Source: Paenibacillus peoriae
GTDB taxonomy: Bacteria > Bacillota > Bacilli > Paenibacillales > Paenibacillaceae
DNA: 64,000 bases
Direction of reading: 5' to 3'
NCBI RefSeq assembly: GCF_022531965.1
Contig: NZ_CP092831.1
Span: forward strand, 2,322,001 to 2,386,000
In this document: piece by piece, positions 8,348-32,630 of the stretch
Position numbering within the stretch: position 1 is the first letter of the stretch
How the letters are laid out: the number at the start of each line of letters is the position of its first letter
Made by a program: the position numbers and the translations under genes
Notes under the pieces: model-generated
The model's database searches: none
What the model was told of the DNA's origin: nothing
Seen by the model: only the letters and a program-made list of their open reading frames with translations

Positions 8348-9214
8348 ATGGACGTTCAACTAATCCTGAATGAGCTTTATGCAGCAGGCGTGCTTGAAGG
8401 CCATATGCAAAATCTCAAACCGCTGACCGGCGGTACTTCGAGCGAAGTGGTTGTTGTCATGGATGGTACCAGGCCTCGATATGTGATTAAGCAAAATGAT
8501 CATGCGATTGTAAAAGCCGAGGCGGAGTTTTTACATACCTATGTACAGATTGAGAAACTATCGCGTTTGGTTTATGTAGATCCGTTGCACCGTTATTTGG
8601 TATACACGTTCAGGTCAGGGCTCACACAGTATCATGGACGAAACAAAAGCAATTTGTTGCTTCATCTGGCGACGGAGGTGATCTCGCACTATAAGCCTTT
8701 TGGTGAGGAACGTCATTATGGTTATCCGGACCACCCGTTTGTGGAATGGAAAGATTTTCTGCTGCACAGAACGAAGGAATCTGGAAAGATCATACAAGAC
8801 ATTTTACCCCGTGAGGATCATCGTTTCGTTCATACCCTTGTGGCTGGATCGCCGCAACGGAATATTAAATATTTGCTTCATGGCGACTGTGGAGTACATA
8901 ATTTTGTGTTTAACGAAAATGGCACATTGACGGGTATTATTGATCCTGATCCCGTGGTGGGAGAACCCCTATATGATCTGATATACGCCTTTTGTTCTTC
9001 ACCGGATAGGCTGACCATAGATACCATTTTGCCTTCCTTAGAGAAGCTTGAGCCGGAGATGACAGGGGAATACGAGCTAAACAGGGAAGTGTTACTGGGA
9101 CTATATTTTCGTATAGCCACCTGCATTTGTCGTCATCCGGAAGATCTCGATCAATATACAGAAGCGTGGACCTATTGGCTTAACAGGATTCGCTGTAAGG
9201 AAGAGGGAATATGA
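8348..9214 (+). CDS. aminoglycoside phosphotransferase/choline kinase-fold protein
   Basis: 288 residues of the APH (PF01636) kinase fold. Visible motifs: lysine VIKQN in the N-lobe, the Brenner motif HGDCGVHNF and the metal-binding IDPDPVVGEPLYD. HGDCGVHN replaces the usual HGDLHxGN, with catalytic Asp and Asn kept. ATG 8348 is chosen for GGAGGGAGG ending six bases upstream; a GTG at 8270 lacks a ribosome site. The substrate cannot be read from sequence: such proteins phosphorylate small alcohols, sugars or antibiotics. It probably shares the racE transcript. Its stop codon overlaps the start of a broken VOC gene (ATGA at 9211). Confidence 0.75.
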   Translation: MDVQLILNELYAAGVLEGHMQNLKPLTGGTSSEVVVVMDGTRPRYVIKQNDHAIVKAEAEFLHTYVQIEKLSRLVYVDPLHRYLVYTFRSGLTQYHGRNKSNLLLHLATEVISHYKPFGEERHYGYPDHPFVEWKDFLLHRTKESGKIIQDILPREDHRFVHTLVAGSPQRNIKYLLHGDCGVHNFVFNENGTLTGIIDPDPVVGEPLYDLIYAFCSSPDRLTIDTILPSLEKLEPEMTGEYELNREVLLGLYFRIATCICRHPEDLDQYTEAWTYWLNRIRCKEEGI

Positions 9215-14532: not shown

Positions 14533-14672
14533 CAAAAATAAGCAAAATGGGGATGTTCAAAGTTTTCAAAAATTGCTAGAATATAGTAACCTCGAATGTA
14601 GTAGAGGTTTTCAAAGTTTCATAGTTTCAAAGACGGGTGGTTTCCGATTGAATCCATGAAGGAGGGAATAGG

Positions 14673-15653
14673 ATGGAACGTAAAGTGCATATCATTCCTT
14701 ACCAAGTGATCAAGCAGGAGCAACAAGTGAATGAAATACCGCGAGGTGTAGAGCTGATTCAGGCTCCTGCGGTATGGAACCAGACTCGAGGCCAAGGCGT
14801 GAAGGTGGCGGTGCTGGACACGGGCTGTGATTCGGACCATCCTGATTTGAAGGCGCGCATTATTGGCGGACGGAATTTCACGGATGATGATCAAGGTGAT
14901 CCGGAAATTTTCAAGGATTATAACGGTCATGGCACGCATGTGGCAGGAACCATTGCGGCAGCAGAAAATGCGGATGGTGTCGTGGGTGTTGCTCCAGAGG
15001 CAGACCTGCTCATCATCAAAGTGCTAAACAAGCAGGGCTCCGGTCAATATGACTGGATTATTCAAGGCATCTATTATGCGATTGAGCAAAAGGCAGATAT
15101 CATATCGATGTCACTTGGCGGTCCTGAAGATGTGCCAGAGCTGCATGAAGCAGTAAAAAAGGCTGTAGCTAGCCAAATCTTGGTCATCTGTGCAGCTGGA
15201 AATGAGGGAGACGGTGACGACAGAACGGACGAGCTCGGCTACCCCGGCTGCTATAATGAAGTGATTAGCGTAGGCGCTATCAATTTTGACAGGCACGCCT
15301 CAGAATTCAGTAATTCTAATAATGAGGTGGATTTGGTTGCACCCGGAGAAGATATTTTGTCCACCGTTCCGGGCGGCAAATATGCGACTTTTAGCGGAAC
15401 TTCGATGGCTACTCCGCACGTAGCAGGTGCATTGGCGTTGATTAAGCAGCTGGTAAGTGCGAGCTTTGAGCGTGATCTCACCGAACCGGAATTATATGCA
15501 CAACTCATCAAACGCACGATTCCACTTGGCAATTCTCCTAAGCTGGAAGGCAACGGTCTATTGTACTTGACGGCAGTAGAGGAGCTCTCGCGTATTTTCG
15601 ACGCACAGCGTGTAGCAGGAATACTAACTGCAGGATCATTGAAGGTTAAATAA
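14673..15653 (+). CDS. ispA: intracellular subtilisin-like serine protease
   Basis: 326 residues, S8 family, without signal peptide or long pro-domain. The catalytic triad is Asp49 (VAVLDTGCDSDHPD), His86 (NGHGTHVAG) and Ser244 (SGTSMATPH); the oxyanion Asn is N177. The short N-terminal extension with IIPY (7-10) corresponds to the LIPY-type inhibitory propeptide of Bacillus intracellular proteases. In Bacillus, IspA degrades cytoplasmic protein in stationary phase. ATG 14673 follows GAAGGAGGG. Stands alone between two terminators. Confidence 0.93.
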   Translation: MERKVHIIPYQVIKQEQQVNEIPRGVELIQAPAVWNQTRGQGVKVAVLDTGCDSDHPDLKARIIGGRNFTDDDQGDPEIFKDYNGHGTHVAGTIAAAENADGVVGVAPEADLLIIKVLNKQGSGQYDWIIQGIYYAIEQKADIISMSLGGPEDVPELHEAVKKAVASQILVICAAGNEGDGDDRTDELGYPGCYNEVISVGAINFDRHASEFSNSNNEVDLVAPGEDILSTVPGGKYATFSGTSMATPHVAGALALIKQLVSASFERDLTEPELYAQLIKRTIPLGNSPKLEGNGLLYLTAVEELSRIFDAQRVAGILTAGSLKVK

Positions 15654-28680: not shown

Positions 28681-28713
28681 AAGGGAGGCGGAATTACTCC
28701 GCTTCCTTTTTTG
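28681..28713 (+). terminator. terminator of uxaB-uxaA
   Basis: GGAGGCGGA / TCCGCTTCC stem (one G-T) with an ATTAC loop and a T6 tail. Confidence 0.85.
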
Positions 28714-28792
28714 TGTTTGTATGCTTCTAAATAGGCATGTTAGACTTACTGCAAAACATGCAATATCGATATTTAAATAAGGGGGAAGTACC

Positions 28793-29239
28793 GTGCAAAA
28801 TGAAATTGTTGCTTATCGGGAAGAAAATCATGATCAACTCGTTGATATTTGGCAGCGGGCTGTACGCCGGACGCACACATTTTTGGCGGAAGAGGACATT
28901 CAATTTTATCATCATATCGTACGCAATGGTGTTTTAAGAGAACTTGAAGTTTGGATGGAATGGAATACAAGTCAAGAACCAACAGGTTTTATCGGGCTGG
29001 ACGGATTAAAAATAGAGATGCTGTTTGTGGACCCTGAACACCATGGGCAGGGCATAGGCAGCCGACTCATCCAGCATGCTGAAAAAATAAAAGGGAAACA
29101 CCTCAAAGTGGACGTGAATGAGCAGAACGAGAAAGCGTATGCTTTCTACAGACATTACGGCTTTGTACAAACGGCGCGTTCTGCACTGGATGGATCAGGT
29201 AGGGCATTTCCTTTGCTTCACATGGAATTGAACAAGTGA
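28793..29239 (+). CDS. GNAT-family N-acetyltransferase (YjaB-like)
   Basis: 148 residues. The acetyl-CoA binding motif A reads FVDPEHHGQGIGSRLIQHA; VDVNEQNEKAYAFYRHYGF is the C-terminal family segment. The arrangement 'IWQRAVRRTHTFL' then the motif matches E. coli YjaB, whose acceptor is not well defined. Start is GTG 28793 behind GGGGGAAG; no ATG fits. Single gene; an AT-rich palindrome at 29316-29352 may terminate it. Confidence 0.85.
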   Translation: MQNEIVAYREENHDQLVDIWQRAVRRTHTFLAEEDIQFYHHIVRNGVLRELEVWMEWNTSQEPTGFIGLDGLKIEMLFVDPEHHGQGIGSRLIQHAEKIKGKHLKVDVNEQNEKAYAFYRHYGFVQTARSALDGSGRAFPLLHMELNK

Positions 29240-29315
29240 ACGATCTACTTTCGTTGGTATTTTAAAAATGGAATATATTATCATAATGCACTTGTCATAT
29301 GTTTGAATTCATGTT

Positions 29316-29356
29316 ATAACTTAATTACGTAATAAATACGTAATTAAGTTATTTTT
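29316..29356. promoter_or_regulatory. 16-bp perfect palindrome upstream of the RRNPP receptor
   Basis: ATAACTTAATTACGTA (29316-29331), a 5-base ATAAA loop and TACGTAATTAAGTTAT (29337-29352), then TTTT. It could be the terminator of the GNAT gene, or an operator or hairpin controlling the receptor gene, whose ribosome site starts 50 bases further on. A pure regulatory role is inference. Confidence 0.65.
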
Positions 29357-29420
29357 GGTTAAGGTTTAGAGCTTGCTTTTGTTTGGTGAATATAAAAAGT
29401 CAGACAAGGAGGCGGGAATA

Positions 29421-30278
29421 GTGGATGATCTTGTTCACTCCGACATCACAGATCTAGACACACTTGTCAACATGATTAAGCTGTCTTTTTCATTTGCGGA
29501 CGGTGCCAATATGATTGCTTTATGCGACCGGCTGTATAGCCATGTCAACCAAAAGTATCAGGAATTGCAGCTCTACAAAGCGCGCAAGAAACCTATACAA
29601 CCCATACATACCAAACGGCCGCTAGTCTACTACTACGGCTACAGTCATCTCATGAAAGGCATGGCTTTCCAAAAACAGGGCAAGTATGAGGCCGCTCGCG
29701 ATTGCATCGAAAAATATGCAGAATTGGGCTGGTTTAATGGTCTTGATCAATATGGGGAAGCAGAGGTGGAATATTACCGCTATGCTGCCAGAGCTAATTT
29801 GTATGCCCTTGATATTTTGTCAGGCCATGCCGAAGTGTTGCAGGAATATATCCAATTTCTTCGTAACAATCCGGAAGAGCTGTTACCGGGGCTTCTTTCC
29901 ATCGTTGAGGGAGCGTCGAGATACGACTATTCTTTAGAGGCTGTGCTGGAATCATTTGCCGAACAAATTGAAGGTTTTAAATATTTTGAAGAGCCTGTGA
30001 ATGTATCTTATTATTTTCGCTTCTGCTATCAACTGGCTCTTTACTATATCAAGCAACAACAGTTTACGGTTGCGTTGGGCTATATCCTGCAATCTCTCAT
30101 GCTGTCCGATACCCTGGGTATGGAACATGAACATGAGTTTAGGAAATGTACCGCTGTATTTGAAATTTTCAGATCCCAAGCTACAGCAACACAGCAAGAC
30201 CAATATATAACTATTTTAAAAGGAGTGTTAAAGGATGAAAAAATTGATTTCACGCTCTCTGTCGCTCAGTCTGTTTAG
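29421..30278 (+). CDS. RRNPP-family TPR receptor (Rap/AimR/Alo type), no HTH
   Basis: 285 residues, almost wholly helical with TPR-like repeats. Typical Paenibacillus receptor segments: LVNMIKLSFSFADGANMIAL, RPLVYYYGYSHLMKGMAFQK, YEAARDCIEKYAELGWF and YYFRFCYQLALYYIKQQQF. GTG 29421 is chosen because AAGGAGG (29406-29412) lies 8 bases before it; an open TTG start at 29373 lacks a ribosome site but would add 16 plausible residues. No helix-turn-helix is visible, unlike PlcR or AimR, so it may act like Rap through protein partners. The end overlaps a pro-peptide gene by 44 bases in another frame, the arrangement of a receptor and its own signal peptide. Peptide-receptor pairs of this family (Alo) are described from P. 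polymyxa. Confidence 0.82.
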   Translation: MDDLVHSDITDLDTLVNMIKLSFSFADGANMIALCDRLYSHVNQKYQELQLYKARKKPIQPIHTKRPLVYYYGYSHLMKGMAFQKQGKYEAARDCIEKYAELGWFNGLDQYGEAEVEYYRYAARANLYALDILSGHAEVLQEYIQFLRNNPEELLPGLLSIVEGASRYDYSLEAVLESFAEQIEGFKYFEEPVNVSYYFRFCYQLALYYIKQQQFTVALGYILQSLMLSDTLGMEHEHEFRKCTAVFEIFRSQATATQQDQYITILKGVLKDEKIDFTLSVAQSV

Positions 30279-30342
30279 TTTGCTAGTGTTTGTTACAAGT
30301 CATGATCTCATCACGGTGTTTTATCATGGAGCCAATCATTAA
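30235..30342 (+). CDS. secreted signalling pro-peptide of the RRNPP receptor (Phr/AimP/Alo type)
   Basis: 35 residues. Basic start MKKLISR, a hydrophobic leucine/serine-rich export segment to about residue 20, then a short tail TSHDLITVFYHGANH. ATG 30235 is 9 bases behind AAGGAG (30220-30225). It lies in a +1 frame relative to the receptor and starts before the receptor ends, ensuring coupled translation. By analogy with Phr, NprX and Alo peptides, the tail would be secreted, trimmed to a 5-8-residue C-terminal peptide (for example ending YHGANH) and re-imported by Opp to bind the receptor. The mature form is inference. Confidence 0.78.
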   Translation: MKKLISRSLSLSLFSLLVFVTSHDLITVFYHGANH

Positions 30343-30421
30343 GAAGGCAGAAGTACAGTAGAAAATTAGTTGTTTTAGCAGGTAGGCAGTTGATTGGAAA
30401 ATATGATGTGGAAGTACACCC

Positions 30422-30463
30422 AATAGCAAGTAAGCTCATTTAGGTCAGGGCTTACTTGCTATT
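30422..30463. terminator. terminator of the receptor/pro-peptide cassette
   Basis: Perfect 14-bp stem AATAGCAAGTAAGC / GCTTACTTGCTATT with a 14-base loop; a short T run on either side. Faces the convergent gene at 30524. Confidence 0.75.
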
Positions 30464-30523
30464 TGGCGTATGATGAAGACCGATCATACCGTATATATAA
30501 CGCGGTACATGTCCCAACAATAT

Positions 30524-31414
30524 TTAAGCTGTCGTAGGTTTATGCAGCAAACCCTGTTCTGACGGATGCAATGAAATCCTTGTCTGTTGGTAAACCGGGA
30601 ATGGTTCTTCCGTACTGTATGATCTGCTTTTTAACGCTGCATCCAGTGCCCGTAGCAAGGAACCTATAAATTGCTCTGGAGAAAAGAAAATGCTTTTTCC
30701 GACCATATGAATGTGAAGCTCGTTATGGTCACGGTTGCTTACGGACAGCAATATACCTTGACCTTGAAAACCCGTACCGATGGCGCGTATTTTGTTTATA
30801 CCCGAGAGTAACATTTCCGTCTTCACCGCACGCCCCTGTTCCTCCACAAATACAGAAATCAGGCGTTTGTCTGTAACGATAACAATTTGGTTACCCCGAA
30901 ATGTATGACTCAGGTGTAGAAAATCTTTATATACACCAATAGTCTGCTCATGCGGAGAAACAATCCCCATCCGTACAAACTCCTCCAGCTCAGTGACATC
31001 GGGTTCCTGATGATTTTTAATTCGTTTTTTGATACTGAACTGAATAGTCAGGATACCCAAGATAGCAATGAGAAAAGCACTAAGTCGGACGTTAAATATA
31101 AAGAACATCAGGACAATAAGGCCGCCTACTAACCACTGTCCCCAAGTTAGATAGCGCAGCTTTTGTTGTACCGTACGGCGATAATAACCGTAGCCCTTTC
31201 CCGGTTGATACTCTTTAGTAAACTTCGTCATACCACGCATCATGGTTAACCCATAGATTGATAAGACTGTCATCCCGAGTGACAGGAGCGTCATAAGCCA
31301 TTCCTGAGCTGCAATGCCAACTAAAGTACACAGACCAAACATGATGAGCCCCGCCCAGCAAGCAAACTTTTTAATTCGAACCTGTTTCTGAATCGAACGA
31401 ACCAATTCTTCCAT
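30524..31414 (-). CDS. membrane protein with C-terminal PH-like region, unknown function
   Basis: 296 residues from ATG 31414 (AGGAGGATT upstream); an in-frame ATG 15 codons earlier has no ribosome site. Four hydrophobic helices in two pairs (about residues 18-60 and 95-140), then a soluble domain beginning near EEFVRMGIVSPHEQTIGVYK with GNQIVIVTDKRLISVFVEE, resembling bacterial PH (bPH) domains. A proline-rich tail ends the protein. Not recognised beyond this. Single gene. Confidence 0.7.
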   Translation of the reverse strand: MEELVRSIQKQVRIKKFACWAGLIMFGLCTLVGIAAQEWLMTLLSLGMTVLSIYGLTMMRGMTKFTKEYQPGKGYGYYRRTVQQKLRYLTWGQWLVGGLIVLMFFIFNVRLSAFLIAILGILTIQFSIKKRIKNHQEPDVTELEEFVRMGIVSPHEQTIGVYKDFLHLSHTFRGNQIVIVTDKRLISVFVEEQGRAVKTEMLLSGINKIRAIGTGFQGQGILLSVSNRDHNELHIHMVGKSIFFSPEQFIGSLLRALDAALKSRSYSTEEPFPVYQQTRISLHPSEQGLLHKPTTA

Positions 31415-31630
31415 TCTTAATCCTCCTGATCTAGGTATATAGGTAATGATTGGAATCACATATAGTCTTATCGTACCATCTGATAGTCTTTTTCGTAAAT
31501 TAATAGATATGAAAATCCAAAGTATGGAAGAAAATTCTCGCCTATAGTCAGATCCCCACCTGAACTTTAGATACCAAAATCAAAAAATCCAGTACTACTC
31601 ATACGAAGCAGAAGCCTTTAAAATAATAAA

Positions 31631-31644
31631 TGTAAGTGCTTACA
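31631..31644 (+). promoter_or_regulatory. TGTAAG-TG-CTTACA palindrome (cre-like)
   Basis: A perfect 6-bp inverted repeat with a 2-base centre, 23 bases before the start codon of the ABC permease gene. Matches the CcpA cre consensus except for the central C, suggesting catabolite repression of the importer. No other feature seen in 31459-31630. Confidence 0.55.
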
Positions 31645-31667
31645 TTACAAAGAAAGGAGGTCTTCGT

Positions 31668-32630
31668 ATGAGTACAGGAGGGAAGAATCCGCAGCCACAG
31701 CCGCCGGTTCGATCGGGAAGAGGAGCATCACTAGCGCGCAAATGGGTTCAACAAAGACATTTGCAGACTATGGCGCTGCTTGGGGTGGTATGGATGATTA
31801 TTTTCCATTACATTCCGATGTACGGTATTTTAATTGCGTTCAAACATTTTGACATCATTGGAACCATATCAAGCGCACCTTGGGCAGGGTTAGAGCATTT
31901 TCGGGCCTTTTTGGAGGATGATAACTTTTGGTACATTGTCAAAAACACACTGGGCATTAGCCTGCTCAAGCTGGCGATCGGGTTTCCGTTACCTATTGTA
32001 TTTGCTCTGTTTTTGAATGAGATTCGGTCTACACGGTTCAAAAAATCTATTCAGACCATTTCGTACCTTCCGCACTTTTTATCTTGGGTCATTCTTGGCG
32101 GGATCTTAACGACGTGGCTGGCAGATACCGGGATGATCAATCAACTGTTGCTAGCCTGGGGGTGGATTGACCAGCCGATCAGTTATTTGGCAGAGCCGAG
32201 CTATTTTTGGGCTATCGTCGTTAGCTCGGATATCTGGAAAGAGCTTGGATGGTCAGCTATTATCTATTTGGCAGCCATGGCGGGGGTATCTACGGACATG
32301 TACGAAGCGGCCACCATTGACGGGGCCGGACGGTTTCAGAAAATGTGGTACGTCACACTTCCCGCTATCAAGGGGACCATATCCATTTTGTTTATTTTGG
32401 CGGTCAGCGGCATATTGAACTCCAACTTCGATCAAATTCTCGTCCTGCGTAACTCGCTGAATGAAAGTGCAAGTAATGTAGTTGATATTTATGTATATCA
32501 GGTGGGCATTCAGCAGGGCCGTTTCTCGTATTCTACCGCGGTGGGTTTGCTGAAATCGGTTCTTGCTCTCATTTTGCTGCTAATTGCCAATTCGGTGACC
32601 AAACGGGTGAATAATACATCCCTATTTTGA
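31668..32630 (+). CDS. sugar ABC transporter permease (LplB/YtmP type)
   Basis: 320 residues, six membrane helices. The ATPase-contact (EAA) loop is EAATIDGAGRFQKMWYVTLP. The segments HYIPMYGILIAFKHFD and SYLPHFLSWVILGG define the LplB subgroup, which imports oligosaccharides derived from plant cell wall polymers. AAAGGAGG precedes ATG 31668. First of permease-permease-lipoprotein-kinase-regulator; no ATPase gene is present, as usual for these importers that share MsmX-like ATPases. Confidence 0.93.
   Translation: MSTGGKNPQPQPPVRSGRGASLARKWVQQRHLQTMALLGVVWMIIFHYIPMYGILIAFKHFDIIGTISSAPWAGLEHFRAFLEDDNFWYIVKNTLGISLLKLAIGFPLPIVFALFLNEIRSTRFKKSIQTISYLPHFLSWVILGGILTTWLADTGMINQLLLAWGWIDQPISYLAEPSYFWAIVVSSDIWKELGWSAIIYLAAMAGVSTDMYEAATIDGAGRFQKMWYVTLPAIKGTISILFILAVSGILNSNFDQILVLRNSLNESASNVVDIYVYQVGIQQGRFSYSTAVGLLKSVLALILLLIANSVTKRVNNTSLF

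Follow-up and report, generated by a model that had tools for sequence, protein, structure and literature searches.

The window analysed here, a stretch of 64,000 nucleotides, covers bases 2322001-2386000 of the 5.84-Mb genome of Paenibacillus peoriae, on one contig. It holds a gene for a TPR-type receptor whose 3' end is overlapped, in a different frame, by a small gene for a putative secreted pro-peptide (Table 1). The first-pass annotation had placed the receptor gene right to the base, and the overlapping 35-codon gene with its own AAGGAG site, which it also described, lies exactly where it was said to lie.

Table 1. Features of the receptor/pro-peptide locus, in window positions
Feature	Position	Strand	Remarks
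Possible promoter TTGTCA-17-TATAAC	29292..29320	+	found by eye; runs into the inverted repeat
Inverted repeat	29316..29352	.	16-base arms, 5-base spacer
Receptor ribosome-binding site AAGGAGG	29406..29412	+	
HTH-less Alo-type TPR receptor gene	29421..30278	+	285 aa, GTG start
Pro-peptide ribosome-binding site AAGGAG	30220..30225	+	
AloP-type pro-peptide gene	30235..30342	+	ATG start, 35 codons
Overlap of the two genes	30235..30278		44 bases, differing frames
Codons of the invariant tail FYHGANH	30319..30339	+	
Codons of the predicted mature signal YHGANH	30322..30339	+	in register with AloP13 ITVS-SHGRGG
Terminator-like inverted repeat	30422..30463	.	separates the pro-peptide gene from the convergent 311-aa gene

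The next gene after the pro-peptide encodes a convergent 311-aa protein, and the repeat between the two lies in a region (30405-30470) with an RNA fold z-score of -5.3, though the terminator scan does not list it, just as the promoter scan does not list the possible promoter. Rfam at gathering scores gives zero matches in 28700-31700. The core of the upstream repeat carries at most one mismatch in all 15 orthologous loci and is also present in L023 and L024, which lack the GNAT gene. It may be an operator for the pair's own promoter or an insulating, AT-rich terminator; since the changes in its arms are uncompensated in the 12 aligned loci (three of the 15 being left out), the comparison leans towards a DNA site rather than an RNA hairpin. 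Two places in the genome lie within three mismatches of this repeat, namely the window itself and a site approximately 200 bases upstream of L005, a long aloR gene, and the backward control finds one. We treat an operator common to the two loci as chance, the copy on the L005 side being absent in the ortholog L079. Nor are palindromes a general mark of alo promoters, a strong one being present at the window locus alone among the 18 loci of this genome. Control of the neighbouring sugar importer, which had also been suggested, is rejected, as the importer lies downstream in only two of the seven named 8.8-kb loci.

The receptor and its pro-peptide

The description of the receptor as composed of TPRs alone, with no helix-turn-helix (HTH), stands. 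Namely, Pfam returns only TPR matches for the 285-aa protein, all of them below the Pfam cut-offs (the best being TPR_8, 8.6e-5), and no HTH; NCBIfam gives zero matches, and, as judged by eye, none of the frames in the 240 bases that precede the gene encodes an HTH. The AlphaFold2 model is all-helical, with a mean pLDDT of 88.3, and displays the C-terminal superhelix of TPR type that is a feature of RRNPP receptors. TPR proteins top the fold comparison, with Rap among the tied matches, a result that is not specific to RRNPP proteins; Foldseek returned nothing at an E-value of 0.001 or below, and the single sequence, when compared with structures, gave one match, which at E 0.5 we ascribe to chance. 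The nearest named receptor proteins come from P. polymyxa and P. peoriae (97-98%), in line with a genome of the P. polymyxa group. Public records often label such receptors 'DNA-binding protein', though they have no DNA-binding domain.

The small gene encodes MKKLISRSLSLSLFSLLVFVTSHDLITVFYHGANH, whose start is signal-like, as judged by eye and from its composition, whose first two thirds are hydrophobic, and whose tail stretch is HDLITVFYHGANH. Could such a reading frame have arisen by chance? We used a rule for pro-peptide genes that asks for 30-55 codons, a start between 70 bases before and 30 bases after the stop of the gene in question, a ribosome-binding site of at least 5/6, a basic start and a hydrophobic stretch. 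Among 50 non-overlapping genes, picked from the 73 ORFs of the window, the receptor gene is the only one with an ORF of this kind at the 3' end; the same rule is passed by 7 of 5000 mononucleotide-shuffled versions of the region. Because only one gene in 50 scores and because the FYHGANH tail is unchanged in the orthologs, the pro-peptide gene is not a chance ORF.

The orthologous set comprises 15 loci (L001 and L019-L032), 13 of them distinct, L019 being identical to L027 and L020 to L028. The small frame is intact in every one and is thus, as the first-pass annotation would have it, conserved alongside the receptor. The named orthologs, at 85-92% identity, are all from Paenibacillus: P. ottowii, P. 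sp. BJ-4, P. brasilensis, two strains of P. terrae, P. maysiensis and P. farraposensis. Although five of its seven codons vary, the C-terminal heptapeptide FYHGANH is the same in 15/15 loci, so that the invariant piece of the pro-peptide is the tail and not the hydrophobic part. Beyond the receptor's stop, codons 16-35 give a pN/pS of 0.06 over the 13 distinct loci, and codons 1-270 of the receptor give 0.13 over 11 of them (L024 and L032 excluded). The start of the receptor is identical, and its length 285 aa, in 13 of the 15 loci; it has 284 aa in L024, and in L032 its end is altered, with the peptide still intact.

Descent from the Alo receptors

The window's own genome holds 18 relatives, 14 of them long (457-473 aa, depending on the choice of start) and four short (277-293 aa), the window receptor being among the short ones; the match at L009 runs across a stop. 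When 52 short receptors are combined into a profile, it aligns with residues 187-465 of a long AloR at an E-value of 2.9e-69. We take the long relatives to be of the AloR type because the peptide of one of them, L078 in a related genome, ends in ITVSSHGRGG, the last six residues of which, SHGRGG, make up the signal of AloP13 (Voichek et al. 2020, PMC7425212). In other words, of the comparisons with Rap, NprR, AimR and Alo receptors that had been proposed for this protein, the one by profile points to Alo, and the fold matches remain unspecific.

What is it that the short receptors have lost? In the model of a long AloR, residues 1-77 form five helices, which are followed by three hairpins (83-186) and then by the part common to the short receptors. 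Residues 12-78 of the long profile match XRE regulators, with a best E-value of 5.6e-4, and SinR at 0.019; the short profile has no match among HTH structures at E up to 1. Both the HTH and the three hairpins are missing from the short receptors, and already the first long helix in the model of the window receptor (12-24) belongs to the part in common with AloR from residue 187 on. The likeness to the Alo systems of PMC7425212 extends to the receptor sequence, the 3'-overlapping peptide gene, the signal-like start and the HG-bearing tail. The differences are the absence of the N-terminal HTH and of the approximately three hairpins behind it and, as read from the ORFs, of a Spo0E-like gene directly downstream in the window. 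Since all Alo receptors contain an N-terminal HTH, according to Voichek et al. (2020, PMC7425212), we do not file the window receptor as a canonical AloR; it is, by its sequence, a member of an HTH-less lineage derived from AloR.

The 62 short receptors in our set (three of them duplicates) measure 192-298 aa, depending on the choice of start, and 59 of them fall between 264 and 298 aa. In a maximum-likelihood tree of 92 receptors, all 58 short ones form one clade (support 100/100) that is nested among 34 long ones. A second tree of 97 sequences, which takes in more genera and from which L073, L074 and L090 were dropped, again unites the short receptors (63/63) in a single clade, with support of 95/90 and in 93% of 200 bootstrap trees. 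The sister of all short receptors, at 100/98, is L099 (genome G182, match 1504-2319), a 341-aa receptor that lacks the HTH and keeps part of the middle, and is likely to represent an evolutionary intermediate. A single loss of the DNA-binding part, perhaps stepwise, would be the simplest account, because the short receptors are a single clade inside the full-length AloRs.

As for their distribution, the relatives are confined, like the Alo systems, to Paenibacillaceae and close kin. By hand count, 28 of the 36 Paenibacillus genomes of a first sample, this one included, hold a relative with a short frame, and relatives at 1e-30 occur in 29 genomes, 28 of these from Paenibacillus, out of 59 sampled. 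With sampling extended to the whole family, matches at 1e-40 appear in 41 of 148 genomes and in 5 of 19 genera, some of the matches being long receptors; the HTH-less clade itself extends, peptides included, to other genera of the family. More distant matches are found on Brevibacillus and 'Brevibacterium' plasmids and in one Brevibacillus phage, SecTim467 (31.6%), the only match among phage records. Patterns for close relatives have zero matches in IMG/VR.

One could argue that the window pair is a relic, a truncated AloR that has kept its peptide gene and lost its signalling. Members of the clade are indeed decaying, the altered receptor end of L032 and the broken or remnant peptide frames of L064, L072 and L091 being cases in point. 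However, the constant length of the receptor, the pN/pS values of 0.13 and 0.06 for receptor and peptide, and the presence of the clade with its peptides in other genera all speak against such decay here, and we regard a relic as extremely improbable.

The first-pass annotation spoke of a Phr/AimP/Alo architecture. Of this, descent from Alo is borne out by the profile (E 2.9e-69) and by the trees. Like the Rap-Phr systems of Bacillus, the window pair has a receptor with no HTH, a TPR superhelix and a pro-peptide gene that overlaps or adjoins. Unlike Rap, the receptor is nested inside AloR, which points to a different descent, and it has no N-terminal domain before the common TPR part; the short profile has no match to a Rap chain at E up to 1. 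From AimR, PlcR, NprR and Rgg it differs in lacking their N-terminal HTH. The titles, abstracts and text passages that we searched do not describe an Alo receptor lacking the HTH, and the pair may already be one of Alo1-22. A 2022 survey names Rap as the only RRNPPA members with no HTH (PMC9765709); a widespread HTH-less Alo clade with a sister of intermediate length would then represent a second loss of the HTH in RRNPPA and would plainly illustrate how a transcription factor can become a switch that signals from protein to protein.

Peptides, ligands and possible partners

The short receptors divide into an orphan branch of 20 and 42 others. In the orphan branch, no AloP-like ORF was found, only a few chance ORFs; 19 of its members form a clade with 100/100 support in the 92-receptor tree, L052 being too short for inclusion, and the branch groups with that of the window receptor (34 sequences, 85/87). 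Of the 42 non-orphan loci, 35 (three of them duplicates) have an intact peptide gene, always with HG in the tail, as in NHGVFS, NHGMNS (twice in one peptide), DHGSE, LHGAEH and NHGVNG; an intact peptide is missing from the other seven, three of which show a visible remnant. Among eight further loci, five add tails such as LNHGMDH and LGHGVDH. The pro-peptides of L004, L005, L053 and L068 each carry two near-identical copies of the signal, for example NNHGMNS...NNHGMNS.

These comparisons also bear on a different reading of the small ORF, namely as a small membrane peptide or toxin, or as a leader with no useful product. Its first two thirds are hydrophobic, which speaks for such a product, and its export and processing are predicted. 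However, the position of the gene, its ribosome-binding site and the HG-bearing tail are alike in 35 of the 42 non-orphan short loci and in many long AloR loci, and it is the tail rather than the hydrophobic part that is invariant, which makes a membrane peptide or leader very improbable.

Seventeen columns of the long receptors are at least 90% conserved. Seven of these, the core residues Y71, Y99, N126, G135, Y143, A165 and Y208 in the numbering of the window receptor, are identical in 34/34 long receptors and in 35/35 non-orphan short receptors compared, three of the latter having decayed peptide genes and four divergent sequences being set aside. Among 19 orphans the same residues, in this order, are kept in 19, 19, 18, 19, 10, 19 and 18. 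This suggests the same kind of ligand throughout, and an orphan pocket that is partly relaxed. Aligning the tail of the window pro-peptide in register with the AloP13 signal SHGRGG predicts the cleavage site and gives YHGANH as the expected mature signal of the window pair.

The interpretation of the locus as a receptor with its secreted pro-peptide is thus supported by the homology to Alo (E 2.9e-69), the invariant tail and the pN/pS of 0.06, and we hold it very probable that the two genes form an Alo-derived pheromone pair with export, trimming, re-import and receptor binding. In particular, the overlapping gene would make a pro-peptide with a Sec-type start, which would be exported and cut, so that a C-terminal piece, most likely YHGANH, accumulates outside, by analogy with AloP13. 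The signal would re-enter through an oligopeptide importer, as is general for RRNPP systems, and would bind in the TPR groove, which has the same core residues as the full-length Alo receptors. The receptor would then switch a partner protein, perhaps a repressor of the XRE type, in the manner of Rap(pLS20) and its target Rco(pLS20). Since the receptor, judging by its sequence, has no DNA-binding domain, it presumably acts on another molecule; that this output is by contact with another protein we consider somewhat more probable than not, and the reading as a whole, an Alo-derived peptide-pheromone system whose receptor has shed its DNA-binding head and switches a partner protein, we consider likely.

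A competing account has the short receptor pair with full-length Alo receptors through the TPR part, or soak up pheromone, thereby damping or tuning their binding to DNA. The region of AloR that the short receptor retains is precisely the peptide-binding and C-terminal one, with the same core residues, 14 long paralogs are present in the same genome, and cross-talk within the family exists, AloP13 having lowered the expression of several other aloP genes and of aloR14, according to PMC7425212. On the other side, the short receptor has a pheromone of its own under strong constraint, from which the peptides of the paralogs differ; we think such tuning unlikely, though not negligible.

Orphan receptors, XRE genes and defence genes

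Returning to a switched partner protein, the best clue comes from the orphan branch, which points to one class of candidates. A divergent, adjacent small XRE gene accompanies all 20 orphan receptors, its match beginning 170-221 bases upstream in 19 of them and 369 bases upstream in L052; in L034 the match falls in two frames and the gene may be broken. Eight XRE relatives of this kind are present in the window's own genome, two of them adjoining alo loci. The window receptor itself lacks a nearby XRE gene, and a partner of this type would have to be unlinked; among the 42 non-orphan short loci, with about 1.5 kb of upstream sequence for most, two have an XRE match (L068 and L071). The linkage is not special to HTH-less receptors, because XRE genes also adjoin long AloRs: L005, L075, L076, L077 and L086, all of one branch and all bearing an HTH, have a divergent XRE gene approximately 244 bases upstream.

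The closest parallel is RapLS20-RcoLS20-Phr*LS20, in which RapLS20, an RRNPP protein with no HTH, is described as binding the separate Xre-type repressor RcoLS20 and releasing it on peptide binding (PMC7430634, PMC3814332). It may serve as a working model for an Alo orphan receptor beside its XRE gene. However, the relation is one of analogy, RapLS20 probably contacts Rco by way of an N-terminal domain (PMC7430634) that is absent from the short Alo receptors, and no XRE gene adjoins the window receptor. Because the authors of the RapLS20 work place Rco binding in a domain that is absent here, we lowered our estimate for an XRE protein as partner of the window receptor and consider it doubtful. 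The orphans themselves recall orphan Raps such as RapB, which is reported to answer PhrC (PMC9765709), in having no peptide gene that we could find and in keeping most core residues; they differ in that Y143 is kept in only 10 of 19 Alo orphans.

One short receptor that does carry a peptide gene, L113 (NC_017543.1 332344-341168), lies next to a divergent HTH gene on plasmid pPPM1a of P. polymyxa M1. It is annotated there as hypothetical (WP_014600312.1), its peptide gene is missing from an incomplete gene table, and an annotated helix-turn-helix regulator of AloR size lies 2.2 kb from it.

In regions of 12-19 kb around the 20 orphan pairs, defence-type genes lie beyond the XRE gene in eight (L107, L108, L109, L114, L117, L118, L120 and L121). 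L109 (10118-14484, near G000:C1 5,779,000-5,783,500) belongs to the window's own genome and carries a Cap4-like nuclease with STAND and pentapeptide parts. Elsewhere the cargo consists of AbiU; GmrSD/NsnA with an AAA ATPase; a DRT2 reverse transcriptase with IetS; a methyltransferase with NsnA/GmrSD; another methyltransferase; an SNF2 helicase with a C5 methylase; and caspase and TIR proteins. A further region holds a 606-aa gene with no match, and in the remaining 11, which are empty, a constant GGDEF or DinB-family gene comes next. With the pair of XRE gene and orphan receptor constant and the cargo varying, this reads as a defence hotspot flanked by a signalling pair.

Taken at its furthest, the HTH-less Alo receptors would be a second DNA-binding-free RRNPP lineage, independent of Rap, acting as pheromone-gated anti-repressors of small XRE proteins and, in the orphan branch, together with the XRE protein, as the gate of hotspot defence cassettes, a combination that we regard as a long shot, the more so in view of the RapLS20 domain. 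If true, defence would be linked to communication between cells, perhaps through pheromones of sister loci, YHGANH among them. The analysis names one precise pheromone that can be put to the test, YHGANH, and one candidate class of partners, small XRE proteins, some of which lie beside defence genes.

Two minor observations concern the surroundings of the orphan pairs. At the far end of the defence insert of L109 lies a second, diverged rlmH-like stretch (14609-15013, 42% identity; rlmH itself is at 8481-8930), which may mark how the insert arrived. Outside the polymyxa group, in L107 (8169-9326), L108 and L110, a gene with a WXG100 domain lies directly downstream of the orphan receptor, the place that rlmH takes in the polymyxa group.
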